Source: Salinibacter sp. 10B (GTDB lineage: Bacteria; Bacteroidota; Rhodothermia; Rhodothermales; Salinibacteraceae). Taken from it: DNA of 64,000 bases. Below the pieces are notes generated by a model. It worked only from the letters and a program-made list of their open reading frames with translations. It did no database searches and had not been told where the DNA came from. Shown in pieces: positions 56,081 to 57,430 of the stretch. The translations under genes and the position numbers were made by a program. Numbering within the stretch: position 1 is the stretch's first letter; every line of letters starts with the position of its first letter. The stretch spans positions 3,288,668 to 3,352,667 of the forward strand of contig NZ_MQWC01000004.1 of NCBI RefSeq assembly GCF_002954405.1, written 5' to 3'.

Positions 56081-56488
56081 CGGGGAGGGGACGATTGTCA
56101 CCGCAGTCGTGGGCCAGGGGCCGGAAAGGAGGGCACGCTTTAGGAAGTGCTGATGTCCTTTCAGTTAAGCAATATCACAGATGGTGTCAATGTAAAAGCG
56201 GCTCTAGTGGTCAGTGAAACTGAAGCTGTCGGAGTTCGAATTGAACACGCTGTGTTGAATGCGTCATTCTGCGGCCTGAAGACCGTCCACTGGTCCATCG
56301 TGCTCCCCGACATGGAAAACGTGACGCACCACTAGCTTTAGAAGCGTCCCCGTGCGGAAGATTCCGTTATTGACACCGTCGAGAACAGGCCCTTGATTGT
56401 ATAATGTGGTCTTTCGAGAAAGACCTTCCGTTTTTGTCCTCTGCTGAGTTTCCTGCAGCGGGCCGTTCTCATCGATCTTTCCGGTCCC
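56081..56488. other. Intergenic region upstream of the recombinase homologue
   Basis: 408 bases, partly lower in GC. A 62-codon forward frame (56147-56335) is not coding-like. TATAAT (56400-56405) and TTGACA (56370-56375) are present but 24 bases apart, too far for a standard sigma-70 pair. A palindrome follows, listed separately. Confidence 0.5.
56408..56425. promoter_or_regulatory. 18-nt palindrome upstream of recombinase gene
   Basis: GGTCTTT and AAAGACC are exact inverted copies around CGAG, three bases after a TATAAT. The position, about 65 bases before the start codon, would suit an operator for a repressor. It is followed by a CCTTCCGTTTTT stretch, so a small terminator is also possible. 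Confidence 0.4.
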
Positions 56489-57430
56489 ATGTCCGACGAT
56501 ACACCGACCAACGATCTCTCCCTCACGCTTCGAGAACTGCGCGACCATCTGCAGGCGTTTCAGGATGACTATCTGGCGGACAAGAGTGACGAGACGGTGG
56601 GTACGTATCGCCGTTCGCTCAACAGCTTCGAGAAGTGGTTCGTGCAGGAGAATAATTTCCGGTTTACAGAGGACGATGTGCGCGACTACAAGACGTATCT
56701 CATGGAGGAGCGGGAGCTGAGCCAGGTGTCCGTGTCGACGTATCTCACGGCCCTGCGTCGCTTCTGTCAGTACCTTACCGACATCGGCGAACTCACCGAG
56801 AATCCGGCAACGGGCGTGAAGGGCAATCGCCGTCCCGACTCCCATTCACGGTCCGTCCTCACCGAACAGGATATCGAGGCGCTGGAGGAGGTGTTGGGGA
56901 CGACTACGGCCATCGACAAGCGCGACACGGCCATCGTCTACCTGATGCTCTACGCTGGGCTGAGTGAGATTGAAATCGTGCGGGCCAACGTGGAGGATCT
57001 TGAGCACACGCTGATGGGACCTGTGTTGCGCGTACAGGGAAAAGGGCGCACGGTGAAGGACCAGGAGGCCCCGCTTGATCCCCCAGTGCTGGAGGCCGTG
57101 GAGGCGTACTTGGACACGCGTGACGACGTACACCCCGAAGATCCGCTCTTCGTCTCGCATGGCCACCGCTCCGACGGCAAGCGCCTCAAGACGCGCTCCG
57201 TCCGCAGCCGCATCAACGGCTACCTCAAAAAGGCCGAAATCAAGCGGAAGGGCGTGACACCTCACAGTCTCACCCACACGGCGGCTCTCATCTGGCTCAA
57301 TGATGGCATGCCGCTCGATGAGGTGAAGCAGCGAATGCGGCACGGCACGCTCGACACCACGATGATCTATTACAAAAAGCAGGGGCTTCTAAAGCGGGAC
57401 CCGGACGAGCTGGACGAATTAACGTCGTGA
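56489..57430 (+). CDS. Tyrosine-recombinase (XerC/D-like) homologue lacking catalytic arginines
   Basis: 313 residues. The N-terminal SAM-like core-binding domain (about 12-110) is normal: LSLTLRELRDHLQAFQDDYL and VSTYLTALRRFCQYLTDIGELTENPATG. The catalytic fold is also present: a Lys in VQGKGR (K185), PHSLTHT (H259), RHGTLDTTMIYY (H285 and tyrosine Y294). The first arginine, normally in YATGLRxSEL, is replaced in YAGLSEIEI (S159). The second, in HxxRH, is threonine (T262). Loss of both should abolish strand cleavage, so it may be a DNA-binding relative. A mismatch of one residue in the alignment near S159 leaves some doubt about the first. Confidence 0.85.
   Translation: MSDDTPTNDLSLTLRELRDHLQAFQDDYLADKSDETVGTYRRSLNSFEKWFVQENNFRFTEDDVRDYKTYLMEERELSQVSVSTYLTALRRFCQYLTDIGELTENPATGVKGNRRPDSHSRSVLTEQDIEALEEVLGTTTAIDKRDTAIVYLMLYAGLSEIEIVRANVEDLEHTLMGPVLRVQGKGRTVKDQEAPLDPPVLEAVEAYLDTRDDVHPEDPLFVSHGHRSDGKRLKTRSVRSRINGYLKKAEIKRKGVTPHSLTHTAALIWLNDGMPLDEVKQRMRHGTLDTTMIYYKKQGLLKRDPDELDELTS

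Follow-up and report, generated by a model that had tools for sequence, protein, structure and literature searches.

What would a bacterial chromosome keep a tyrosine recombinase homologue for, if the protein has lost the two arginines with which such enzymes clamp the phosphate? The question is raised by a gene at 56489..57430 on the + strand of a 64,000-nucleotide stretch of the Salinibacter sp. 10B genome (hereafter the window). The gene is an undamaged open reading frame of 313 amino acids, from ATG to TGA, and its product, termed pseudo-Xer here, is the sole close match in its own genome, the next best being a different recombinase at 25% identity. Our best explanation, to which we assign a probability of roughly 0.6, is that pseudo-Xer is an old, vertically inherited chromosomal paralogue that would bind DNA without cleaving it, acting as an MrpR-like regulator or an architectural factor.

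Domain Architecture and Active Site

The original prediction held that the frame is undamaged, the N-terminal DNA-binding domain intact, and the recombinase fold retained, and each of these points was borne out. A core-binding (SAM-like) domain spans approximately residues 12-112 (56522..56824, + strand), as delimited by the Phage_int_SAM_1 match (PF02899, residues 22-97, 1.6e-13) and by four helices of the predicted model (residues 14-28, 34-54, 61-74, and 79-98). The catalytic-type domain follows at approximately residues 122-298 (56852..57382, + strand), where Phage_integrase (PF00589) matches residues 123-297 at 6.2e-21. A structure search with an AlphaFold model computed from a 65-sequence alignment (mean pLDDT 89.1, pTM 0.68) matched it to DNA-bound XerH, aligned across 285 residues at Z 19.6 and rmsd 4.0, as well as to lambda Int and Cre.

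In phmmer alignments with XerA (5hxy) and XerD (1a0p), Ser159 (codon 56963..56965, + strand) aligns with the Arg of the GVR/GLR box, the first catalytic arginine of active enzymes, and Thr262 (57272..57274, + strand) with the Arg of HxLRH, the second. The same alignments and that of the family place the hairpin Lys185 (57041..57043, + strand), His259, His285, and Tyr294, the nucleophile position (57368..57370, + strand), where an active enzyme has them, as predicted. As controls, we added 40 distinct tyrosine recombinases from the same, related, and other-class genomes to the family alignment, canonical XerC and XerD included; all 40 carry Arg at both columns and 38 carry the Tyr. An alignment slip behind the missing arginines is ruled out by these controls together with the alignments to solved Xer proteins. 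The possibility that other arginines fill the two pockets found no support at the sequence level, where the alignments keep Ser159 and Thr262 at both positions. Judged by alignment and by the predicted model, the window protein is a complete recombinase fold from which both phosphate-clamping arginines are absent.

Relation to Xer Recombinases

Pseudo-Xer shares the two-domain architecture of XerC, XerD, XerA, and XerH, and its best sequence matches lie among them (XerA 1.2e-13 and XerD 7.9e-13 by phmmer; XerD 2.9e-27 by profile search). Unlike these enzymes, it lacks both catalytic arginines, scores far under the equivalog cut-offs for XerC (TIGR02224, 131.3 bits against 335.15) and XerD (TIGR02225, 110.5 bits against 329.6), and belongs to a separate clade. 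A 74-row tree separates the 59 family members sampled for it from XerC, XerD, and the remaining recombinases of the order (support 100/96), and gives the group of Rhodothermales plus f21, another lineage of the class, support of 100/100. A separate tree of a smaller set agrees. Two over-long Xer reading frames were trimmed before tree building, with the leading 26 and 39 residues removed.

Distribution and Selection

The closest named relatives come from Salinivenus and Salinibacter, and those relatives with NCBI lineages are Rhodothermales. Within the host's family, 23 of 27 genomes encode an orthologue; 24 have matches at 1e-5, one of which (G006) was left out as another recombinase plus a C-terminal piece. 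Across the Rhodothermales the count is 104 of 114, from 105 matches at 1e-12 after exclusion of G044, whose only match is a weak one to another recombinase. The ten genomes without an orthologue (G006, G008, G009, G021, G028, G044, G051, G071, G094, and G102) are 56-96% complete, so assembly gaps may partly explain these absences. Both f21 genomes carry an orthologue (E about 1e-83). In the 128 genomes of the class beyond the order and f21, no match was better than 4.9e-26, absence in nine class genomes meaning absence among the first-look candidates scored. When 394 genomes sampled across the phylum were searched, a further 40, all from other classes, gave matches no weaker than 1e-33; in five genomes, absence is again read in that limited sense. 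Of these 40 we retained 36, dropping L171-L173 (118-135 bits), three ordinary recombinases whose catalytic set is complete, and L175, a gene split over two frames.

Selection has acted to preserve the protein. Orthologues in the Rhodothermales are under purifying selection, with omega between 0.016 and 0.166 in 16 pairs (Nei-Gojobori; the pairs are not independent and the values are rough, as some dS exceed 1). Pairs without the catalytic Tyr are no exception to this range (L017/L018, 0.165; L101/L102, 0.156; L102/L103, 0.141). Sixteen of the 68 distinct proteins have lost the Tyr although their genes are kept, so cleavage is not the selected property in those members. The proposal of selection for a non-cleaving role is thereby well supported, by order-wide conservation, low omega, and Tyr loss alike. 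Decay into a relic retained by chance, for which one might cite the drift of several catalytic positions within the order and a few matches with one internal stop, is highly improbable given presence in 104 of 114 genomes, these omega values, and conserved neighbours.

Residue States across the Family

The residue counts refer to 68 distinct Rhodothermales proteins, obtained from 86 fetched loci rather than from all 104 genomes, with a 22-residue contig-end fragment (L019) left out. The search for orthologues with the same substitutions, which the original prediction had proposed as a check, found the loss to be common to the order: the first Arg occurs in 0 of 68 proteins and the second in 2. 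Position 159 is Ser in 55, Thr in 5, Ala in 4, Gly in 2, and Asn in 2; position 262 is Thr in 62 and Val, Ser, or Arg in 2 each. The remaining catalytic positions are less uniform, with Lys185 in 63 and His259 and His285 in 56 each. Tyr294 is present in 52 and otherwise replaced by Asp (6), Ser (6), His (2), Gln (1), or Phe (1), the replacements being found in families f2, f3, and f12. Both f21 proteins have Thr159 and Val262.

The 36 homologues from other classes differ in pattern. Position 159 is Ser in 24, Thr in 5, Arg in 4, and Ala, Gln, or Lys in one each, and position 262 is Arg in 32, Gln in 3, and Cys in 1. His259 occurs in 11 (Phe in 15), His285 in 11 (Ile in 17), and the Tyr in 33. 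The four Arg159 proteins form one nested clade and three of them have Gln at 262, so their Arg159 may be a reversal. Over the whole family, the first Arg is missing from 102 of 106 members and both arginines from 69 of 106. Pseudo-Xer therefore offers a natural case of stepwise loss, in which the first Arg has gone most widely, then the second (from all but 2 of the Rhodothermales proteins, both of those from f21, and four others), and the Tyr only in some. One member of the 106, L136, has the full catalytic set RKHRHY and is a candidate active or reverted protein.

The invariant columns include several arginines of the clamp. In the window protein, Arg282-Met283-Arg284 (57332..57340, + strand) stands where canonical Xer proteins have Leu-Leu-Gly before the third catalytic residue, His285. 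Arg282 is constant in the Rhodothermales (68/68) and Arg284 nearly so (66/68); in other classes position 282 is Arg in 24 and Lys in 9, and position 284 is Arg in 34. Arg282 persists where His285 and the Tyr are gone and would therefore serve something besides cleavage.

Gene Neighbourhood and Upstream Region

Upstream sequence of 1500 bp or more was available for 45 distinct orthologues, and 36 of these are preceded on the same strand by a 2-oxoacid dehydrogenase E2 gene (PF00198, PF00364), within 17-454 bp in 33 cases and at 1249, 1890, and 7741 bp in the other three. Downstream, a weakly PorV-like gene (22.4 bits, cut-off 27) is convergent in 31 of 47. The window locus is one of the nine without the E2 gene; it is flanked on the left by a TonB-receptor gene and a reading frame with a weak, below-cut-off DUF4249 match, and on the right by a reading frame without a family match and a thioesterase.

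A phage or plasmid origin has no support. The gene is chromosomal, with housekeeping neighbours and synteny across the order, and a scan of viral_contigs returned one weak relative at 22% identity (the scan was seeded by three short peptide patterns, and a miss in it means little).

The region upstream of the gene contains a conserved block, 56362-56380. Its core, TTCCGTTATTGAC, is shared by 9 of the 11 loci aligned, which are of genus level or near it, the exceptions being L008 and L011. Starting inside the block is a promoter-like TTGACA-17-TTGATT (56370..56398, + strand), which may serve as a promoter; the full -35/-10 pair is found in 7 of the 11 loci, and a scan did not list it. The block accompanies the gene at loci that have the E2 neighbour (L005, L006) as well as at loci to which the gene has been relocated (L001, L004). 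Past this promoter-like block, and still ahead of the start codon, is a terminator-like hairpin with a T tail (window 56408-56425); one such hairpin was found against 1.1 expected, and its exact sequence occurs in none of 10 other upstream regions.

Precedents and Proposed Function

The closest functional precedent is MrpR (YopR), described as the master repressor of the Bacillus subtilis prophage SPbeta, acting at a repeated operator (PMC10516654). The same report gives Val137/Ser138 at the position of the first catalytic Arg and Val257/Arg258 at the second, with Lys169 and Tyr304 kept; no recombination was seen there, and Tyr304 was found to matter for DNA binding (PMC10516654). As far as that account goes, MrpR and pseudo-Xer are alike in having a recombinase fold with the first Arg replaced and Lys and Tyr kept, and by predicted fold and alignment pseudo-Xer likewise combines a recombinase fold with the lack of a functional catalytic set. 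The need of MrpR for its Tyr in DNA binding could explain why the Tyr is mostly retained in pseudo-Xer. The two differ in that MrpR is a phage-borne repressor with a repeated operator, whereas pseudo-Xer is chromosomal across an order and a putative regulator. Structural similarity between our model and MrpR is distant (13% identity, Z 12.4-13.2, rmsd 16.5-17.0 against the MrpR apo form). SroF of phage phi3T (PDB 9rd5, 9rgl) is closer, with Z 16.4, rmsd 4.9, and 14% identity. According to its PDB entry titles, which are the sole source for its function here, SroF is a DNA-bound phage repressor with an antirepressor; it has the same fold, and pseudo-Xer differs from it in being chromosomal.

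A gene that persists as a single copy in nearly all sampled members of the order, although its product lacks residues required for cutting, probably works by DNA binding and not by cutting. We propose that the two-domain clamp would wrap DNA yet be unable to cleave it. Binding to one or more specific chromosomal sites would involve the core-binding domain and C-terminal arginines, Arg236, Arg239, Arg241, Arg282, and Arg284 among them. The bound protein could then act as a regulator or an architectural factor, much as MrpR uses the recombinase fold. Several observations weigh against this reading: the Lys, both His, and the Tyr are retained in most Rhodothermales orthologues; the other classes mostly keep the second Arg (32/36) and the Tyr (33/36), so that residual chemistry is possible there; L136 retains its complete set; and visual inspection of 250 bp of upstream sequence aligned from 11 loci revealed no inverted-repeat operator. 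Of the roles first suggested for this protein, the DNA-binding regulator now has a direct precedent in MrpR, whereas the XerC/XerD partner or inhibitor is weakened by the results below.

Coexisting Recombinases and Alternative Explanations

Could pseudo-Xer instead be an accessory of chromosome dimer resolution, that is, a non-cleaving subunit which joins an active recombinase and FtsK at dif-like sites and shapes or restrains the synapse? We consider this unlikely. Its best sequence relatives are XerC, XerD, and XerA, and most Rhodothermales genomes (107 of 114) encode FtsK-gamma although XerD exceeds the TIGR02225 cut-off in none of the 114 (best 7.6e-57). Over the class, XerD exceeds that cut-off in 119 of 244 genomes, both f21 genomes included (in nine genomes, absence again refers to the first-look candidates scored). 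All 36 other-class genomes have XerD beside pseudo-Xer, over the cut-off in 35, and 34 of the 36 have at least two matches. Pseudo-Xer is thus an additional Xer-like protein, since XerD coexists with it in the other-class and f21 genomes; these genomes carry both, and we accordingly reject pseudo-Xer as a substitute for XerC or XerD.

Two further recombinase types occur in the Rhodothermales: 62 genomes carry type A and 42 carry type B. Type A alone occurs in 49 of the 114 genomes, type B alone in 29, both in 13, and neither was detected in 23 (with absence in 20 genomes being among the first-look candidates scored; a weak type A match in G003 and a 75-residue type B match in G024 were left out, and some matches cut by contig ends were kept). 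One or the other type, present in 91 of 114 genomes, may carry out dimer resolution. A dedicated partner should track one recombinase, but pseudo-Xer is present in 46 of 49 A-only, 27 of 29 B-only, 12 of 13 A-and-B, and 19 of 23 neither-type genomes, and occurs alike with XerD. It follows no single active recombinase, being present alike in all four A/B classes. Nor was another recombinase found among the neighbouring reading frames at 54 Rhodothermales loci (5-6 kb) or 36 other-class loci (about 3 kb); the one recombinase match in the neighbour scan adjoined the dropped L172. This indifference to recombinase type and the lack of XerD above the cut-off in 114 genomes are what weaken the suggested partner or inhibitor of XerC/XerD.

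A second alternative, that pseudo-Xer is still an enzyme with slow cleavage or an unusual substrate, in which Arg282 and Arg284 replace the lost arginines, seems to us improbable. The near invariance of this Arg pair in the Rhodothermales and the frequent retention of Lys185, His259, His285, and Tyr294 would suit such an enzyme. The Tyr is nevertheless lost in 16 and His285 in 12 of 68 proteins while Arg282 stays constant, and type A recombinases that keep both catalytic arginines can likewise have Arg at column 284.

A role independent of DNA, for instance with the ribosome, we regard as slightly more improbable still. The idea comes from PDB 9i5v, in which chain 14 (401 amino acids, named RaiA) contains an XerC-like stretch at residues 17-279, as if an XerC-like domain had been fused to a ribosome hibernation factor, and from the 11 of 36 other-class homologues that have leuS downstream on the same strand. 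In pseudo-Xer, however, the recombinase domains fill the protein and leave no room for a RaiA domain, and several clamp arginines are invariant. The operon logic is weak because the neighbours differ between lineages.

Returning to the non-cleaving DNA-binding protein that we favour, a bolder version, which we offer tentatively and think rather doubtful, is that a third, non-cleaving Xer paralogue belongs to the basic chromosome machinery of an entire bacterial branch, where it would mark or shape the terminus region or a site of a housekeeping regulon, and that it has outlived the replacement of XerC/XerD in the Rhodothermales.

Literature and Significance

We found no description of this family in open-licence PMC papers, nor in that set a paper combining tyrosine recombinase with pseudoenzyme or with Rhodothermales, or any occurrence of SroF among the papers listed for it. 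The available main text of a classification paper (PMC8138268) contains neither "inactive" nor "Rhodotherm", and "Salinibacter" is absent from the available portions of an Xer review (PMC5357621) and a dif survey (PMC3025954). The recombinase-fold regulators met in this work, MrpR and SroF, are phage proteins. If our reading is true, the fold has been recruited for a DNA-binding protein of the core chromosome, one that is retained throughout an order and has homologues in other classes. Many genomes probably list pseudo-Xer as an integrase or as XerC, and such labels would distort tallies of mobile elements and Xer systems.

A tandem pair of recombinase genes elsewhere in the same genome (L002:1453-3599; G000:C4:338055-340180) consists of a type A gene followed by an intact type B gene. 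The type A member has lost the Lys and both His positions and kept both arginines and the Tyr, and at L044 and L046, from the same genus, the first gene of the pair is degenerate too. This type A protein may be on its way to becoming a second pseudo-recombinase, with an active-type partner next to it.
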